Below are positions 9,997 to 17,908 of a stretch of 64,000 nt of DNA, one piece after another (within the stretch, counting starts at the first letter, position 1; the number at the start of each line of letters is the position of its first letter). Made by a program: the position numbers and the translations under genes. The DNA is from Arthrobacter pascens (lineage in GTDB: Bacteria; Actinomycetota; Actinomycetes; Actinomycetales; Micrococcaceae): positions 1,302,001 through 1,366,000 of the forward strand of contig NZ_JAUSWY010000001.1 of assembly GCF_030815585.1 (NCBI RefSeq), read 5' to 3'. A model generated the notes under the pieces. That model was not told the origin of the DNA. It searched no databases and worked only from the letters and a program-made list of their open reading frames with translations.

Positions 9997-10866
9997 ATGA
10001 CAATCAGGTCGGGACAGTCCCTAGCGGCTGCCGTCAGCGAGGCCACGGCCATCCTCAAGGACGCCGGAGTTCCCAGCCCGCGCGTCGATGCGGAACTGCT
10101 GGCGGAGCATCTGCTGGGTGTGGGCCTGGGCCGGCTGCGCGCCATGATGCTAGGGGATGCGGCGGCGCCGGAAGGTTATGCCGAACTCGTGGCCGAAAGA
10201 GCTCAACGGATTCCGCTGCAGCACATCACCGGAGTTGCGCATTTCCGGTATCTGGAGCTTGCCGTGGGGCCCGGCGTCTTTATCCCGCGCCCTGAAACCG
10301 AATCCGTCGTCCAACTGGTCATCGACCATGTCAAAGGGATGGCCCACCCCAGGATTGTCGATCTGGGCACCGGCTCCGGGGCAATTGCGGGTTCAATCGC
10401 CCATGAGGTGCCCGGCGCCGAAGTCCACGCCGTGGAGTTCAGCCCGTTTGCCCACGCCTGGGCAGGGAAGAATCTGGCGCCCCTGGGCGTCCATCTGGTG
10501 CTCGGGGACCTGCGGAATGCACTTCCGGAACTCAACGGAATGTTCGACGTCGTAGTTTCCAACCCGCCGTACATCCCGGCGGAAGCCGTCCCGAACGAAG
10601 CCGAAGTGGCCCTGCACGATCCGCCCGAGGCGTTGTACGGCGGGGGAGCGGACGGCATGGAACTTCCGACGGCGGCGGCAGGCTCGGCTGCGCGGCTGCT
10701 TGTACCCGGGGGCTACTTCGTGATGGAACACGCCGAGGTCCAGGCCACGTGGATCGCCGCCATGATGAGGCGGGCCGGTGTTTGGACCGGGATCACCACA
10801 CACCTGGATCTCAACGGCAAGGAACGCGCCACCAGCGCCCTGCTTGACGCTCCGGACCACGAGTGA
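9997..10866 (+). CDS. prmC: Release factor glutamine N5-methyltransferase
   Basis: SAM-dependent methylation of the GGQ glutamine in release factors. The 289-residue protein has an N-terminal helical domain, the linker GVFIPRPETE, the SAM-binding motif VDLGTGSGAIA, and the catalytic NPPY signature in VVSNPPYIPAEA (about residues 187-191). It lies directly after prfA. Its 3' end (from about 10753) and an internal piece (10244-10293) are duplicated in degenerate form at 11969-12168, on the far side of the epimerase gene. This copy looks intact and is presumably the functional one. Confidence 0.96.
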   Translation: MTIRSGQSLAAAVSEATAILKDAGVPSPRVDAELLAEHLLGVGLGRLRAMMLGDAAAPEGYAELVAERAQRIPLQHITGVAHFRYLELAVGPGVFIPRPETESVVQLVIDHVKGMAHPRIVDLGTGSGAIAGSIAHEVPGAEVHAVEFSPFAHAWAGKNLAPLGVHLVLGDLRNALPELNGMFDVVVSNPPYIPAEAVPNEAEVALHDPPEALYGGGADGMELPTAAAGSAARLLVPGGYFVMEHAEVQATWIAAMMRRAGVWTGITTHLDLNGKERATSALLDAPDHE

Positions 10867-10917
10867 TGAAAGACTAGGCCAGTTACAAACCTATGACTGC
10901 ACCTCCGACGATCAGCG
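10753..10917 (+). repeat. Direct repeat, left copy (prmC 3' end plus tsaC 5' stub)
   Basis: The last 114 bp of prmC, the junction, and the first bases of a tsaC-like gene recur at 12024-12222. The tsaC part is only a stub here: the initiating GTG has become GTT (10882-10884) and 2 nt are lost. The terminal 26 bp (10892-10917) match 12197-12222 at 25 positions. The stop codon of the epimerase gene on the other strand falls inside this stub. Confidence 0.85.
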
Positions 10918-11841
10918 GCGGGTAAGCACTTCCCGGACGTTGCCGCGGACAGCGACACCGTGGGCGGCGGCCCAGCCAAGCACCTGGTCCTGACCGAACC
11001 ACATCACCTCCAGGCGCCTTAGAGCCCCGTGGAAGCGGCTGCCCGCAAGCCGGGACAACCCAAAACCGAGACCCAGGGCGCCCCGGCAGAGCCATTCGGG
11101 AAGGTGGCGTGGCGGGCGGCCCCCCGCCAGTTCAAGGACCTCGGACGTGGTGAGCCCCTCCGCGGGCTGCAGCACCGTCGTCGACACCGTCCCGGGAAAG
11201 GTTGCGAGCGCCGACACCAGCTCGGCAAGACCCAGGACGGAGGTCACCGGAGTGGGCCGCTGGCCCGGGCCGGCCACGCTTGAGAGCACGGACGCCGCAA
11301 TGCGTTGGAGCTTCCGCGTGGTGGCCCGCCCCGGACCCTGCACCGAGGTGGCGCGCAGGATGACGATATCCAGCCGTGCTGCCGGGTCCGGCTGCCGCAC
11401 CCGGAGCGCTTCCTCGCCCAAGGCCTTGGAACGTGAATACGACGAGAAGGGTTCAACACTGGCGGACTCGTCCAGGCGCTGCCGCCTGCCCTGGACCGCG
11501 GCACTGCTGATGTGGACCAGGCGGCGCACCCCGGCACGTTCGCAGGCTCGGGCAATGACGGCGGGCAGGAGGGCGTTGGCCCCCAAGAGAGAGGTTTCGC
11601 CGCCTGCATCGGGAGACGCGAGGCCAGCGGCATTGACCACTACGTCCGCGCCGGCAATCGCATGGGCCAGCAGATCGGCAACGGGCAGCAGTTCCGTCTG
11701 CAACAAAATGTCCGCCGAGTCCGCACCGGACCAGGCCAGGCGAGGCGCACTGACCCGGACAACTTCCAGCCCGTCAGCGGACAGCCGCGCAACGACGGCG
11801 CTGCCGACGAAACCGCTGGCACCTACTACTGCACATTTCAC
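10912..11841 (-). CDS. NAD-dependent epimerase/dehydratase family protein (extended SDR)
   Basis: A 309-residue extended short-chain dehydrogenase: Rossmann motif VGASGFVGSAVVARL near the N-terminus, HISSAAVQG strand, and the catalytic pair in SYSRSKALGEEAL (YxxxK). The relatives act on nucleotide sugars, but the substrate cannot be named. GTG at 11841 has AAGGA 9 nt upstream. It lies on the opposite strand to all its neighbours, between prmC and tsaC, which are adjacent in the usual actinobacterial order, and is flanked by a decayed duplication of that junction. Its last codons run into the duplicated tsaC stub. This suggests acquisition by recombination. The glycan cassette just downstream of tsaC could be its functional partner (inference). 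Confidence 0.85.
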   Translation of the reverse strand: MKCAVVGASGFVGSAVVARLSADGLEVVRVSAPRLAWSGADSADILLQTELLPVADLLAHAIAGADVVVNAAGLASPDAGGETSLLGANALLPAVIARACERAGVRRLVHISSAAVQGRRQRLDESASVEPFSSYSRSKALGEEALRVRQPDPAARLDIVILRATSVQGPGRATTRKLQRIAASVLSSVAGPGQRPTPVTSVLGLAELVSALATFPGTVSTTVLQPAEGLTTSEVLELAGGRPPRHLPEWLCRGALGLGFGLSRLAGSRFHGALRRLEVMWFGQDQVLGWAAAHGVAVRGNVREVLTRR

Positions 11842-11870
11842 GCCAATGCATCCTTAGATCTTTACGTCCG

Positions 11871-11903
11871 GAGGGCAGCGCCATGGAACGGGGCGCTGCC
11901 CTC
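11871..11903 (-). other. Stem-loop upstream of the epimerase gene
   Basis: A perfect 12-bp inverted repeat (arms 11871-11882 GAGGGCAGCGCC and 11892-11903) with a 9-nt loop, 30 bp before the epimerase start codon in its own leader. It could be a leader structure of that gene or a terminator belonging to the inserted DNA. Confidence 0.5.
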
Positions 11904-11968
11904 GCGCGGGAAGTAGCCGGGTTAAGCTAAACCACCGGTGTTCGGAGCTCATCCTATCGCTTGGACAC

Positions 11969-12168
11969 TACCGGCACCCGGAGCTGGCCGTCGGGCCAAG
12001 GGGACTCATCCCGCGACCCGTATATCGCCGCCATGATGAATCGGGCCGGTGTCTGACCGGGATCAGCACGCACCTCGATCTCAACGGCAGGGAACGCGCC
12101 ACCAGCGACGGGCGTGCCGGTCCGGACCGCGCCACCAGCGACGGGCGTGCCGGTCCGGACCGCGAGTG
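11969..12168 (+). pseudogene. Decayed second copy of prmC (internal piece and 3' end)
   Basis: 11969-12019 resembles prmC 10244-10293 (encoding a degenerate FRYLELAVGPGVFIPRP), then sequence jumps to a match of 10753-10866 starting at 12024 (IAAMM, HLDLNG, ERATS). About 460 bp of prmC are missing between the pieces, a 1-nt loss near 12044 creates a stop, and a 33-bp tandem repeat has grown in the 3' end. There is no start codon. This is a remnant left by duplication of the prmC-tsaC junction. Confidence 0.8.
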
Positions 12169-12222
12169 ATGAAAGAATAGGCCAGTGACCACAACCTACG
12201 ACTGCACCTCCGACGATCAGCG
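12024..12222 (+). repeat. Direct repeat, right copy (prmC 3' remnant plus true tsaC start)
   Basis: Partner of 10753-10917. Here the prmC half is decayed and the tsaC half is intact, the mirror of the left copy. The 1.2-kb interval between copies holds only the epimerase gene and its leader. Confidence 0.85.
12096..12161 (+). repeat. 33-bp tandem repeat, two copies
   Basis: 12096-12128 and 12129-12161 are identical 33-bp units beginning GCGCCACCAGCGACGGGCG. They arose inside the prmC 3' remnant; the intact prmC has one copy of the corresponding region. Confidence 0.85.
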
Positions 12223-12958
12223 CGCCCTGGGACTGGAACATGCCCAGCGTGCCATCAGCGAAAAGAAGTGCGTGGTGTTCCCGACCGACACGGTGTACGG
12301 GATCGCTGCGGACGCTTTCTCACCCCAGGCCGTCACCATGCTGCTGGTCTCCAAGGGACGCAGCCGCACCATGCCGCCGCCCGTGCTCATCCCGCGGCTT
12401 AACGCCCTGGACGGGCTGGCCACTGACGTTTCCGCGGATGCCCGGAGGCTGGCCGAAGCCTTCTGGCCCGGTGGGCTGACCCTCATCCTGCACGCCCAGC
12501 CCTCCTTGGACTGGGACCTCGGCGAGACCAAGGGAACGGTGGCCCTGCGCATGCCGGCGGACGAGATAGCCCAGGAGCTGCTCACCCTGACCGGGCCGCT
12601 GGCAGTCTCGTCGGCCAACCGGACCGGCCAGGCGCCTGCGCAGACCGCGGTGGAGGCCCGCTCGCAGCTCGCTGAATCGGTGGAGGTCTACTTAGAGGGC
12701 GGCTTCCGTCCGGTCGCAGGAACGGACGCCGTGCCCTCCACGATCGTGGATGCCACCGGCCCCCGCCTGCGGGTTGTCCGCAACGGCGCAGTGACGCTGG
12801 AGCAGTTGCGTGAGCATGTTCCCGGTGTCCTCGGCCTGGGCGAAGTCCCGATGGCCGAGGAACCGGCGGCGGAAGTTCCCGCTGATGACACCACCGCTGA
12901 AACGCCCACCGCTGAAAATAACGGCACAACCGCCGTCGACGATTCACCAAGGAACTGA
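12185..12958 (+). CDS. tsaC: L-threonylcarbamoyladenylate synthase (Sua5/YrdC/TsaC family)
   Basis: Makes threonylcarbamoyl-AMP from threonine, bicarbonate and ATP for the t6A37 modification of ANN-decoding tRNAs. The 257-residue protein has the YrdC fold: VFPTDTVYGIAADAF, the lysine/arginine loop VSKGRSRTMPPPVLI, and GPLAVSSANRTGQ. A C-terminal Ala/Glu/Thr-rich tail of about 40 residues is dispensable-looking. GTG at 12185 is the start of the conserved region; its sequence is duplicated as a dead stub at 10882. The stop is followed 1 bp later by a glycosyltransferase ATG, so this gene leads into the glycan cassette. Confidence 0.94.
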   Translation: MTTTYDCTSDDQRALGLEHAQRAISEKKCVVFPTDTVYGIAADAFSPQAVTMLLVSKGRSRTMPPPVLIPRLNALDGLATDVSADARRLAEAFWPGGLTLILHAQPSLDWDLGETKGTVALRMPADEIAQELLTLTGPLAVSSANRTGQAPAQTAVEARSQLAESVEVYLEGGFRPVAGTDAVPSTIVDATGPRLRVVRNGAVTLEQLREHVPGVLGLGEVPMAEEPAAEVPADDTTAETPTAENNGTTAVDDSPRN

Positions 12959-12959
12959 C

Positions 12960-13868
12960 ATGCAGCCCAAAGTCGCCGTCGCGGCAGTAACCTTTGACCG
13001 CCATGAGGAACTGGCCCTGCTCCTCAGCGGGCTGGCGGCCCAGACGGCGCCCATCCACTCCATCGCACTTGTGGACTCGGGGACCGTGCCTGCTACGGAG
13101 GTAGTGAGCGCCGGCGGGGACAACATCAACTATCTGCGCTCCGAAGCCAATCTCGGCGGTGCCGGCGGCTTCGCCTACGCCATCATGGCCGCGATGGCCA
13201 GCGGAGCCGAATGGATCTGGCTGATGGACGACGACGGCCATCCCGAGGACGGCAGCTGCCTCGCGGAACTCCTCAAGACCGCAGAAGAGCACCGCCTCGA
13301 TATCGTGAGCCCTCTCGTGGCCGCCACTGCAGATCCCAACCGGCTCTCCTTCAACTTCCGGATCAACGGCCTCCTGACCAACGACCGATCCAGGCTGGCG
13401 CCCATGGGCTACCTCCCGGACATGGTGCACTTCTTCAACGGCGCCCTGATCCGCACCGAAGTCTTCTATAAAATCGGAATCCCGGACGTGAAGTTCTTCA
13501 TCCGTGGTGACGAAGTCGATTTCCTCTCCCGGGTCAAGAAAGCTGGCCTCAAGTACGGAACGCTCGCCACCGTGGCCGTGCAGCACCCAGCCACCTGGAC
13601 GGAGATGAAATCCGTGTTCGGCGGGTTCATCACCCCCGTTGTCCCGGAGGGCGAGTTCAAGCGTTACTGCTACTTCCGCAACCGGGGTTACCTCACCCGG
13701 AAGTACCGCAATCTGCGCTGGTTCGGCGCTGACATCGTCGGGTTCCCGTACTACTTCTTGAAGACCGGTGACTTGAAGGGACTGGCGCAGTGGTTCGGCG
13801 CCTACTCCGCTGGTTTCCGCGGCAAGGGCTTCGGCTCGCCCGCGCAACTGATGTCCAGCGCCAGCTAG
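12960..13868 (+). CDS. Family-2 glycosyltransferase, GlfT-like
   Basis: A 302-residue inverting glycosyltransferase of GT-A fold: N-terminal VAVAAVTFDRHEELALLL, the acceptor/donor motif NLGGAGGFAYAI, and the metal-binding DDD in WIWLMDDDGHPEDG. This arrangement resembles the galactofuranosyl/rhamnosyl transferase branch that includes GlfT proteins, but donor and acceptor cannot be deduced. ATG at 12960 has AAGGA at 12949-12953; an upstream start at 12810 is inside tsaC. Together with the next gene it forms a pair of paralogous transferases acting presumably on a lipid-linked surface glycan at the inner membrane face. Confidence 0.88.
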   Translation: MQPKVAVAAVTFDRHEELALLLSGLAAQTAPIHSIALVDSGTVPATEVVSAGGDNINYLRSEANLGGAGGFAYAIMAAMASGAEWIWLMDDDGHPEDGSCLAELLKTAEEHRLDIVSPLVAATADPNRLSFNFRINGLLTNDRSRLAPMGYLPDMVHFFNGALIRTEVFYKIGIPDVKFFIRGDEVDFLSRVKKAGLKYGTLATVAVQHPATWTEMKSVFGGFITPVVPEGEFKRYCYFRNRGYLTRKYRNLRWFGADIVGFPYYFLKTGDLKGLAQWFGAYSAGFRGKGFGSPAQLMSSAS

Positions 13869-13874
13869 GCCGCC

Positions 13875-14831
13875 GTGGAGAACCTGTTCGTCGTCGTCGT
13901 CACCTACAACCGTGCCGACTTCCTGGAGAATCTGCTGGATTCCTTAGGCCGCCTGGACATGCGCCCCGAAGGGATCATCGTGGTGGACAACGCCAGCAGC
14001 GACCACACTGCCGACGTCGCCTCCCGGGCCATTTCCGCCGGCGACCTGCCCATCCGTTACGAACGGCTGCCGGAGAACCTGGGCGGCTCCGGCGGGTTCT
14101 CCCGCGGCGTGGAGCTTGCTCTCGAAGCCGGCGCCGGATGGCTGTGGCTGATGGACGACGATGTGGAGGTGCTTCCGGGGGCGGTGGATGAACTGGACCG
14201 CTTCACGCCCGACTACTCCTGCATTATCGGACGCCGCTACGACGCCAACGGCAACCCGTTCTTCTGGCAGCACCATTTTGTCGAGGCACTCGGAATCTTC
14301 CTCCCCGTCTCCCACGGCGTCTTCAAGCATTCCGATGTGTTCCGGACCAACGTGGGCAACTTCGAAGGAATGCTCATCAAGGCTCCACTGGCCCGGTCTA
14401 TCGGGCTGCCGGATCCACGATTCTTTATCACCTGGGATGACGTCATCTACGGCTGGCTCGCCGCGCAAAGGACGCCGGTTGTCTACGTCAACGCCTTCGT
14501 CATCCAAAAAGTCCGCGCCCAGCGCCAGGTGGACCTCGGCCTGCGGCACCTCAACGACTCCAGCGACCTGAGTCGCCGCTACGTCATGCGGAACCGTGGC
14601 CACGTGGCGCAGTATCTTCGGGCGCACGGAAAGTTTAACCGGATCGGCTTCGGCACAGGGACTGCCCTGACGTTCCTGAAGGAAATCTTTCGCCTCGCAC
14701 TGGTTGAACGCACCCCGAAGGGGTTCGGTGCCTTATGGCGCGGCTGGCGGGAATCGCGCGCCATCCTCGCCGACCAAGGCTGGGAGCCGATGCCGCCGGT
14801 GCCTGCGCAGGCAGGCCGGGACACCGCCTAG
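13875..14831 (+). CDS. Family-2 glycosyltransferase, second of a pair
   Basis: A 318-residue GT-A enzyme paralogous to its neighbour: VVVVTYNRADFLENLLDSL, VDNASSDHT (nucleotide-sugar binding), NLGGSGGFSRGV and the metal-binding triad in WLWLMDDDVEVL. Later residues (ITWDDVIYGWLA) match the usual catalytic-base region. GTG at 13875 lies 6 bp after the preceding stop. The two transferases may add successive sugars to the same polymer. The exact sugar is unknown. Confidence 0.88.
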   Translation: MENLFVVVVTYNRADFLENLLDSLGRLDMRPEGIIVVDNASSDHTADVASRAISAGDLPIRYERLPENLGGSGGFSRGVELALEAGAGWLWLMDDDVEVLPGAVDELDRFTPDYSCIIGRRYDANGNPFFWQHHFVEALGIFLPVSHGVFKHSDVFRTNVGNFEGMLIKAPLARSIGLPDPRFFITWDDVIYGWLAAQRTPVVYVNAFVIQKVRAQRQVDLGLRHLNDSSDLSRRYVMRNRGHVAQYLRAHGKFNRIGFGTGTALTFLKEIFRLALVERTPKGFGALWRGWRESRAILADQGWEPMPPVPAQAGRDTA

Positions 14832-14910
14832 CGGCTCACCGGACGGGGATAAAAGGCAGAATACGAGTCCACCTGCGGCCACCGAAACGGGGAACCGGGT
14901 CGATTGCGAT

Positions 14911-14916
14911 TAGTAT
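14911..14916 (+). promoter_or_regulatory. Possible -10 box for the CapD-like gene
   Basis: TAGTAT fits the actinobacterial TANNNT pattern, in the gap after the second glycosyltransferase. Transcription from about 14923 would leave an 80-nt leader and argues against a GTG start at 14931. No clear -35 is visible. Confidence 0.35.
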
Positions 14917-15002
14917 CGTTTTAGGACCCGGTGCTGTCCGACAGTTGCGCCCCGGGGTATTTCTTGAAACAGGCGCATGGCCGCCGTGGTAGTGGAAGTC
15001 GG

Positions 15003-16886
15003 TTGCAATCTCTGTTGACTACGAAATCTGAAGCGCGCGAACCCGCCGCAGTACGGGACGAGAAGCCCCTCCTCTGGATCTGGATCCAACTGTTCTTCGA
15101 CTCCGTGTCCTGGGTCGTGGCGATCGCCCTCGCGCTGCTGCTGCGCTATGAACTGGGAATCCGCGCAGACCAGTTGGTCGGTGCCATGGCCATCGCCGGA
15201 ATTGCCGTGGTTGTCCAGGCGGTGGCCGGCTACGCCCTCGCCCTGTACCGGGGCAGGCACCCCTTCGGCAGTTTCCAGGAAGCCAGGGCCCTTGTCTTTG
15301 TAACCGTGATTGTCGCAGCCTCGATCACCGTGAGCCTGCTGGTGCTCTACGAAGAGATCGGAATCGGCCGCAGCGTCGGCCTCATCGCCTTTCCCTTCGC
15401 CTGCCTGTTCATGGGCGCCGCCCGCTACGTCAAGCGGCTCTACGTCGAGGGCAAGTTCCGGCCCGGAGACGGCGCCCAGAACACCCTGATCTACGGGGCA
15501 GGCTTCCTCGGTAATTCGCTCCTGACCCGGATGATGCAGGACCCTGATTCGCCTTACGTCCCCGTGGGCCTGATCGACGATGACCCCTCCAAGAAGCACC
15601 TGAGGCTGACCGGAGTGCAGGTCCTCGGCCGGGGAGACGATCTCCCGGCCATCATCCGCCGGACCCGCGCAACCGTCCTGGTGCTGGCCTTCGCCCATGT
15701 GGAGGCGTCCGTCGTGCGCCGGATCTCCGACGCCGTTGCCGGCCTGAACGTCAGGGTGCTGGTGCTTCCCCCATTGAGGGACATGCTCGGCAGCGGTGCC
15801 CCCGACGGGTTCTCCGATTTCCGTGACGTCGCGGTCGAAGACCTGATCGGCCGCCGGCCAGTGGACATCAAGGTCGATGAAATTGCCGGCTACATCAAAG
15901 GCAAGCGGGTGCTGGTCACCGGCGCTGGCGGATCCATCGGCTCCGAACTCTGCCGCCAGATCGTCCAGTTCTCACCTGCGGAACTGATCATGCTCGATCA
16001 CGACGAAACCGGCCTGCAGCAAACCCAGATTTCCATCACCGGCCGCGGACTGCTCGCCGGCCGCGACACGGTCCTTGCCAACATCCGCGACGGGGCAGCC
16101 CTGCGGGACATCTTCACGGACCGCCGCCCCGAGGTTGTCTTCCACGCGGCTGCTCTGAAGCACGCACCGTTGCTCCAGCAATATCCCGTCGAGGCCTGGA
16201 AAACCAACGTCTGCGGCACGCTCAATGTCCTTCGGGCGGCGGAAGGGGCGGAGGTTTCACACTTTGTCAACATTTCCACCGATAAGGCCGCCAACCCCAC
16301 AACAGCCCTCGGCCACTCCAAGCGCGTGGCCGAAAAGCTGACCGCCTGGATGGCCGGGCAGACCGGCCGCAAGTTTGTCTCCGTCCGCTTCGGCAACGTA
16401 ATGGGAAGCCGCGGCTCGATGCTGCCTCTCTTCACCGAGCAGATCCGCGTCGGCGGACCTGTCACTGTCACGGATCCCGACGTCACACGCTTCTTTATGA
16501 CGATTCCCGAAGCCTGCCAACTGGTAATCCAGGCCGGAGCGATCGGCACAGGCGGCGAAGTCCTGATCCTGGACATGGGCGAGCCGGTGAGGATCCTGGA
16601 CGTGGCCCAGCGCATGATCGCCATGTCCGGCAAGCAGGTGGAGATCATCTATACCGGGCTGCGGCCGGGGGAGAAGCTGCACGAGGAGCTCGTGGGCAAC
16701 GGCGAGCTGGATCAGCGGCCATTGCACCCGAAGATCGCCCACACCAGGGCCTCCGAGCAGGATCCGGCCAAGCTGGACCTCGACGTCTGGCTCGCCCGCT
16801 GCGAAGCCGAACAGGGCGCCTCCTACATCGCGGACATCCCCGACGACGAGGCTGATGAATCCGGCGACATCAGGGTGGCGTCATGA
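15003..16886 (+). CDS. CapD/PglF-type nucleotide-sugar dehydratase, membrane-bound
   Basis: Likely UDP-HexNAc 4,6-dehydratase (or epimerase) that makes a modified sugar for a surface polysaccharide. About 627 residues: four N-terminal membrane segments (starting WIQLFFDSVSWVVAIALALL), a first nucleotide-binding domain (NTLIYGAGFLGNSLL), then the SDR domain with VLVTGAGGSIGSELC (about residues 305-319), NISTDKAANPTTALGHSKR (family active-site region) and NVMGSRGSMLPLF. TTG at 15003 is chosen with GGAAG at 14994-14998; GTG 14931 and TTG 15015 are alternatives. The longer N-terminus from 14931 reads like non-coding DNA. It overlaps the next gene by 4 bp (ATGA), so translation is coupled. Confidence 0.9.
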   Translation: MQSLLTTKSEAREPAAVRDEKPLLWIWIQLFFDSVSWVVAIALALLLRYELGIRADQLVGAMAIAGIAVVVQAVAGYALALYRGRHPFGSFQEARALVFVTVIVAASITVSLLVLYEEIGIGRSVGLIAFPFACLFMGAARYVKRLYVEGKFRPGDGAQNTLIYGAGFLGNSLLTRMMQDPDSPYVPVGLIDDDPSKKHLRLTGVQVLGRGDDLPAIIRRTRATVLVLAFAHVEASVVRRISDAVAGLNVRVLVLPPLRDMLGSGAPDGFSDFRDVAVEDLIGRRPVDIKVDEIAGYIKGKRVLVTGAGGSIGSELCRQIVQFSPAELIMLDHDETGLQQTQISITGRGLLAGRDTVLANIRDGAALRDIFTDRRPEVVFHAAALKHAPLLQQYPVEAWKTNVCGTLNVLRAAEGAEVSHFVNISTDKAANPTTALGHSKRVAEKLTAWMAGQTGRKFVSVRFGNVMGSRGSMLPLFTEQIRVGGPVTVTDPDVTRFFMTIPEACQLVIQAGAIGTGGEVLILDMGEPVRILDVAQRMIAMSGKQVEIIYTGLRPGEKLHEELVGNGELDQRPLHPKIAHTRASEQDPAKLDLDVWLARCEAEQGASYIADIPDDEADESGDIRVAS

Positions 16887-17908
16887 TGCCGCTTGCCCTC
16901 GCGGCCGGGATCACCCTGCTCGCCAGCCTTCTGCTTCCCCTGGCCGTCAAGCCGTGGCTGGTCCGGATGGGAGTCGTCGACGTTCCGTCGGCCCGCTCCT
17001 CCCATGGCAAGACGACCATCCGCGGCATGGGCGTGGCCGCCGCCCTGGCCACCGCCGTCGGCTATCTGGCCGCAGTATTCCTCGGTGCCGTCACGGTAGA
17101 CCGTTCCGTCTTCGGCGTGGTCCTCGGGATCATCGCCGCGAGTGCCGCCGTAGGCTGGATCGAGGATCTCCGGGGCCTTTCCATCCGTGGCCGTGCCGCC
17201 GCCCAACTGGGGATCGGCGCCGCGGGCTCCGCAGCGCTGCTGGTGCTGACCGCGCAGTCCTTCTGGTGGTTGCCGCTGGCGGCCCTGGCCATCGCTGCCT
17301 ACGTCAACATTGCCAACTTCATGGATGGCATCAACGGGATCTCCGGCTTGCACGGTGTCACCGCAGGCGCCGCCTATGCGGTGGCAGGAGTACTGGCCGG
17401 GCAACCCTGGCTCACCGCCGGCGGAGCGGTGCTGGCGATGGCCTTCCTTGGCTTCCTGCCATGGAACCTCGGCCGTGGCACGGTGTTCCTGGGCGACGTG
17501 GGCAGTTATCTCCTCGGCGCCTCGGTTGCGGCGCTTGCCGTGGCCGGCTTCCTGAGCGGCGTCTATGTTGAATACGTCCTTTCACCGATCCTGGTCTATG
17601 TCGCGGACACGGGCTTCACGCTGCTGCGCAGGATCAAAGCGGGGGAGCGTTGGTACGCGTCCCATCGCGAGCACGTCTACCAGCGGCTCACCGACGTCGG
17701 ATTCTCACACCTGCAATCCGCTGCCGTGGTCACGCTTTGCACCGTCGCCGTCATTGTCCTTGGCTTCATCGCCGCCACAGCCCCCCTGCCCACTGTGGCG
17801 CTCTGCGTTGCCGGAAGCCTTGCCGTGTTGGGCCTGTACGTGGCTTCCCCCGCCCTGATCCGGCGTTTCCGGCGCCGTATGAAAGTCACCCGGGCCCCGG
17901 TGGTCTAG
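16883..17908 (+). CDS. WecA/MraY-family polyprenyl-phosphate sugar-1-phosphate transferase
   Basis: Starts a lipid-linked glycan by moving a HexNAc-1-phosphate from UDP-sugar to polyprenyl phosphate at the membrane. The 341-residue protein has about ten hydrophobic segments, the family aspartate motifs in NIANFMDGINGISG and VFLGDVGSYLLGA, and the cytoplasmic loop SHREHVYQRL equivalent to the HxxHR-type motif. ATG overlaps the CapD-like stop (ATGA). In most actinobacteria this gene follows tsaC directly and precedes atpI, so the three genes before it look inserted into the ancestral order. The exact sugar (GlcNAc or other) is not determined. Confidence 0.9.
   Translation: MMPLALAAGITLLASLLLPLAVKPWLVRMGVVDVPSARSSHGKTTIRGMGVAAALATAVGYLAAVFLGAVTVDRSVFGVVLGIIAASAAVGWIEDLRGLSIRGRAAAQLGIGAAGSAALLVLTAQSFWWLPLAALAIAAYVNIANFMDGINGISGLHGVTAGAAYAVAGVLAGQPWLTAGGAVLAMAFLGFLPWNLGRGTVFLGDVGSYLLGASVAALAVAGFLSGVYVEYVLSPILVYVADTGFTLLRRIKAGERWYASHREHVYQRLTDVGFSHLQSAAVVTLCTVAVIVLGFIAATAPLPTVALCVAGSLAVLGLYVASPALIRRFRRRMKVTRAPVV

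Follow-up and report, generated by a model that had tools for sequence, protein, structure and literature searches.

The prmC–tsaC junction of an Arthrobacter pascens genome carries an additional gene on the opposite strand, flanked by partial second copies of both of its neighbours. All positions given here refer to the window, the 64,000-nucleotide stretch of DNA that was analysed, which derives from a genome represented by a single contig of 4.73 Mb. The family of this organism includes Rothia, Kocuria and Arthrobacter. Genomes, loci and metagenome proteins are denoted by G, L and P labels, respectively, and g1 is the label of the window's genus; the G genomes are taken as members of the same family on account of the gene order they share.

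Genes and remnants at the prmC–tsaC junction

An intact prmC lies on the left (9997-10866, forward strand). It encodes the release factor N5-glutamine methyltransferase, scores 223.2 bits against NCBIfam TIGR03534 (cut-off 199.1) and is 86% identical in DNA to its counterparts in G169 and G099. It is followed by a dead 5′ stub of tsaC (10882-10917, forward strand), homologous to 12185-12222, and by a reverse-strand gene for a 309-residue NAD-dependent epimerase/dehydratase (10912-11841; Pfam PF01370, E 7.6e-24), whose orthologues in other genera converge on tsaC. A hairpin without a T-run, its stem 12 bp long, lies between the start of this gene and the remains of a second prmC (11871-11903, no strand assigned). 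The folding energy of a 64-nt stretch there is -34.5 kcal/mol (z -2.74), and elsewhere in the genome the hairpin has one short match only (E 0.55). The second prmC consists of a decayed internal piece (11966-12019, forward strand), homologous to about 10240-10293, and a decayed 3′ end with a one-base deletion (12024-12169, forward strand), within which a 33-bp unit is present in two tandem copies (12095-12160, forward strand), visible both as a 33-column alignment gap and as a repeat in the sequence. The intact tsaC then follows (threonylcarbamoyl-AMP synthase; 12185-12958, forward strand; TIGR00057, 155.8 bits against a cut-off of 123.2), and to its right lies a glycan cluster that we call version A (12960-17908, forward strand). 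This comprises two glycosyltransferases (12960-13868 and 13875-14831), a nucleotide-sugar dehydratase (14931-16886) and a putative MraY/WecA-type transferase (16883-17908). A consensus scan found no promoters in 10850-12250, and the list of open reading frames holds no mobility genes between the repeats.

Alignments confirmed that the prmC–tsaC junction is duplicated and eroded. The 3′ end of prmC, the spacer and the start of tsaC (10753-10917) match 12024-12222 with a blastn E of 8e-36, 146 of 200 columns being identical; of the 36 gap columns, 33 reflect the right copy's tandem duplication. Local alignment over a wider stretch reached a score of 232, where the best of 200 letter shuffles gave 92.5. 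The internal piece is weaker (11971-12018 against prmC 10245-10292, 35 of 48 identical, E 0.003; slightly widened, it scores 51.0 against a maximum of 41.5 over 500 shuffles), but it is credible because prmC of other genomes also matches it, with a best E of 2.7e-6 (L159). An earlier note, made from the letters of this DNA, had described an intact prmC with a dead tsaC stub on the left and a decayed prmC with an intact tsaC on the right; both the arrangement and the underlying similarity hold.

The decay differs between the two sides. When the stub is set against the right copy and the relatives at 23 of the 29 junction loci (all but L056-L058 and L060-L062), the GTG start of the stub has become GTT, and the stub carries more substitutions and a two-base loss; the start of the right tsaC is the same as in the relatives. 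The stop codon of the epimerase, a TGA complementary to 10912-10914, falls within the stub, just as the earlier note had it, and the gene therefore takes its stop from antisense tsaC. The right prmC bears the one-base deletion, the 33-bp duplication and a large internal deletion, and its remnant starts inside the gene, a state that would look identical if produced by later deletion. Each flanking gene is thus represented by one intact and one truncated copy, in direct order, as in a direct-repeat scar of additive recombination.

Partial copies of prmC, tsaC and prfA were sought in 67 loci, the window and 66 others, of which four (L123 and L131-L133) hold no tsaC. A second partial prmC–tsaC junction occurs in the window only; the other matches were short (L114, L115, L125 and L137) or were repeats of the prfA–prmC boundary. 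The latter are direct repeats of 31-55 bp in genus g45, at about 11252-11343 in L135 and about 5452-5608 in L136.

Across the genus, a 416-base junction probe matched all 206 genomes. It ran over prmC and tsaC in one piece in 198 of the 205 genomes other than the window's and in two pieces 72-93 bp apart in seven (G019, G111, G143, G164, G167, G193 and G215), and by this probe none of the 205 has an inserted gene at the junction. The window alone gave two overlapping pieces, spanning bases 1-253 and 87-416 of the 416. The spacing between prmC and tsaC is 14-39 bp in all 29 genus loci that were read, none of which holds an insert, and an intact tandem intermediate was found neither among the 67 scanned loci nor in the 205 genomes. 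At E 1e-25 the epimerase itself is matched in three of the 206 genomes, the window's and two others whose proteins are 44-45% identical and encoded beside an mraY-like gene elsewhere. The earlier note had asked whether relatives carry the epimerase here with no flanking repeats; the 205 genus relatives have no epimerase at this place.

Since the duplicated junction is real and unique among the 206 genus genomes, additive recombination followed by deletion is well supported. The recombination scar is genuine and well preserved, and it belongs to a known kind. Elsewhere in the family, two g52 genomes have a glycosyltransferase between prmC and tsaC (9924-10784 in L114, 9843-10691 in L118) that is 74-79% identical to the first one of the window, so this junction has been opened there too.

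The epimerase and its usual neighbours in the family

The product of the reverse-strand gene scores 84.9 bits against PF01370, above the curated cut-off of 20.9. GxxGxxG and YxxxK are the defining motifs of NAD-dependent epimerases/dehydratases (extended SDR), and the translation, read by eye, contains GASGFVG and YSRSK. Against the named NCBIfam epimerase families (HpnA, rmlD, galE and others) it stayed below threshold, with a best score of 42.9 bits for a cut-off of 367.65. Its usual neighbours suggest a role in cell-wall glycan synthesis.

Those neighbours are consistent across genera. At E 1e-40 the epimerase is present in 100 of 295 family genomes, including the window's, and in 13 of 32 genera, and in Rothia and other genera the order is prfA, prmC, tsaC and then the opposite-strand epimerase, with 3′ ends facing. 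This convergent arrangement was seen in 62 of 67 genomes or records (46/51 G genomes and 16/16 named records, one 7-bp overlap counted in), a set chosen as epimerase holders in which several Rothia records come from one species. As eight genomes have two loci each, the set amounts to 75 loci, of which 69 are convergent in addition to the overlapping one. The other five genomes (G481, G230, G195, G185 and G053) have no tsaC in the stretch examined, the G481 locus being short, and in the last four of these the epimerase match adjoins an mraY-like gene. A more distant epimerase (44-51% identical) likewise adjoins an mraY-like gene at L123, L131, L132 and L133, in stretches that contain no tsaC.

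This gene order speaks against one part of the earlier note, in which the epimerase came in with a circular molecule: in the family it is the usual convergent neighbour of tsaC. The stub is placed and oriented towards the epimerase as a full tsaC would be in the family order, and the gene therefore looks like a leftover in its usual neighbourhood rather than a random foreign insert, as far as gene order can tell. A foreign base composition was also rejected, as its GC3 of 0.774 is in line with the mean of 0.777 for the 53 long open frames of the window with GC3 above 0.7, and its divergence from 26 family genomes is close to that predicted from tsaC (z -2.0 to +1.2). A plasmid origin of the epimerase and a phage origin of the stretch were likewise rejected: the protein matched none of 72,556 plasmid records (E 1e-10), and the stretch matched none of 50,697 phage records. 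A further candidate, a glycosyltransferase remnant upstream of the epimerase, was discarded after the gap between the epimerase and the prmC remnant showed no glycosyltransferase trace, either by DNA comparison or against a set of 34 such proteins taken from 18 loci (best E 0.11).

The closest epimerases are encoded on metagenome contigs of 1.2-1.6 kb: P0001 (93% identical), P0003 (86%) and P0002 (84%). P0001 and P0003 end in TRRQ and the window protein in TRR; P0002 ends differently (THRSGRG), so that the ancestral end is not fixed. In the tree, the window protein and these three group together with support, on a long branch. AU tests, from which five long-branch rows were dropped (g34_G268, g1_G195, g1_G185, f18_G053 and g25_G230), gave p-values of 0.12 for grouping with g28, 0.053 with g28+g45+g49 and 0.21 with g24+g27, and neither the tree nor these tests single out a donor. 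This was the comparison of epimerase phylogeny with the species tree that the earlier note had proposed.

The two prmC copies agree at 100 of 115 compared positions, and the 15 substitutions were read as eight derived in the right copy, four derived in the left and three ambiguous. Relative to G169 and G099, no derived site among the 115 positions is common to both copies and four derived changes are confined to the left one; on this basis, either the two copies separated at an early point of the branch leading to the window, or a sister lineage supplied the right one. One base at the tsaC start is common to the stub, the right tsaC and one of the 23 relatives (G139).

Alternative glycan clusters to the right of tsaC

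The version A marker, a dehydratase at least 88% identical to that of the window, is present in 35 of the 206 genus genomes, with 14 further dehydratase matches at 54-58%, and the marker for a second version, B, a transferase from L141, is present in 170. The two are mutually exclusive, with none of the 35 A genomes among the B matches, and together they account for 205 of the 206 genomes, the exception being G160, which is 63% complete. The position of the marker to the right of tsaC was read in 20 genus loci, 4 with version A and 16 with version B, and the window is a further A. The two markers were noted from 12960-17908 of the window and from L141 and L142.

At fourfold-degenerate sites, the cluster of the window is more similar to that of G169 (739/924, 0.800) than seven flanking genes are (924/1385, 0.667; p 2e-12); when four flanking genes are used, these agree at 563/857 sites. 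Control genomes G007 and G175 showed no significant difference between cluster and flanks, and in G197 the cluster was below the flanks (0.525 against 0.583, p 0.008). Expression bias may raise the identity of some genes, since atpB, a flanking gene, is also high (107/140, 0.76), as are some genes further right (0.81-0.84). Judged from these identities, the cluster bears marks of an exchange with a related lineage, which is evidence that the locus recombines but not proof of the scar's origin. With an identity of 0.66 to G169, tsaC is at flank level. The exchange of the cluster and the duplication of the junction may therefore have been separate events, and a single step that delivered the right prmC and tsaC together with the incoming cluster is not supported.

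Origin of the scar and its parallels

Taking the duplication and its erosion together with the empty site in the genus, the tsaC–epimerase order of the family and the alternative clusters, we assign a probability of about 0.6 to the reading that the locus holds the trimmed remains of two tandem alleles of one neighbourhood, with the epimerase as a survivor. The left allele would have had the usual family order of prmC, tsaC and opposite-strand epimerase, and the right allele prmC, tsaC, glycosyltransferases, dehydratase and MraY-type transferase. Additive recombination with homologous pairing at prmC–tsaC would have set the alleles side by side, with the epimerase side of the left allele connected to the prmC of the right one by a further crossover or by illegitimate joining. 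Deletions would then have taken away the left tsaC beyond about codon 12, reaching into the end of the epimerase, as well as most of the right prmC, so that one working copy of each gene stayed and the epimerase remained between two scars. A deletion fusing tsaC to the epimerase would explain both the stub and the TRR end with its antisense-tsaC stop. That a tandem existed, in what order the steps took place and which allele came in are inferences; the intermediate, like the donor and the direction, is unproven.

Four other accounts were weighed against the tandem-allele reading. In the least improbable of these, which we consider doubtful, nothing was transferred: an ancestor with the canonical prmC–tsaC–epimerase order underwent tandem duplication and later lost one copy of each gene. 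The tsaC-like divergence of the epimerase, its native GC3 and the failure to reject grouping with g28 all agree with this, but the wider species-tree grouping is borderline (p-AU 0.053), and the rarity of the gene in the genus, where two of its three occurrences are distant and elsewhere, demands many losses or exchanges. Slightly less probable again is the route proposed in the earlier note, a single crossover with a circular molecule carrying the prmC–tsaC junction and the epimerase, followed by erosion. The duplication, the erosion and the topology of that proposal fit, as intact prmC, stub, insert, remnant and intact tsaC follow in the order of a one-crossover product and the two probe matches overlap; this product is not unique to a circle, however, the plasmid and phage records yielded no match, and an epimerase that is the locus's usual family neighbour needs no special vehicle. 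A circle made from a chromosomal piece would in any case resemble the tandem-allele reading.

Independent insertion of the epimerase during repair, with some 0.7 kb of the target duplicated on the way, would also fit the repeat pattern, but it gives no reason why the inserted gene should be the normal partner of tsaC in its normal orientation, and we think it very unlikely. An assembly artefact is hardly credible: uniqueness in the sample is all that speaks for it, and against it the copies differ by substitutions, indels and the 33-bp duplication and the genome is one contig. As for mechanism, such a scar can result from homology-facilitated illegitimate recombination (PMC3240628, PMC5361080), from a single crossover with a circular molecule or from tandem duplication induced by transformation (PMC3784515), and one scar does not decide among them.

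A literature search turned up no paper on this arrangement. The closest published parallel that we found is the capsule island of Neisseria meningitidis, whose Regions D and D′ contain an intact galE1 and a truncated remnant, galE2, and for which illegitimate recombination truncating the recipient's copy was proposed (PMC5349592). There, as here, a polysaccharide locus gained by recombination is bordered by two copies of one gene, of which one is intact and the other truncated; the repeats there, however, are inverted and flank a 24 kb island, whereas those of the window are direct, flank a single gene and are each missing a different part. For effector-immunity module arrays of Vibrio cholerae, homology-facilitated illegitimate recombination was proposed (PMC5361080). 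There a new module is added at a homologous anchor beside the old one, most of which is lost with one old gene kept; that gene, unlike the epimerase of the window, is an immunity gene with a plausible use. Natural transformation of Streptococcus pneumoniae similarly produces merodiploids in which exchange adds instead of replacing and so gives tandem duplications, although those described were about 100-900 kb and seen fresh, while the one proposed here is old and spans a few kb (PMC3784515).

The epimerase may be a retained modifier of the version A glycan, or may simply not yet have been lost. A broader and more speculative possibility, to which we give little weight, is that, throughout the family, a cassette-switching cell-wall glycan locus lies between tsaC and the atp operon, that exchange there is sometimes additive, and that the epimerase was kept to modify the glycan of the other cluster; if so, the scar would record a chimeric glycan pathway. 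At a site with two alternative clusters, the window preserves a legible trace of an exchange in which two alleles were probably stacked rather than swapped. Here tsaC, which follows prmC so closely in 29 relatives, is separated from it by an antisense gene. The locus illustrates that gene order across genera can overturn an obvious foreign-insert reading, and that one gene of an old arrangement can outlive the arrangement itself.
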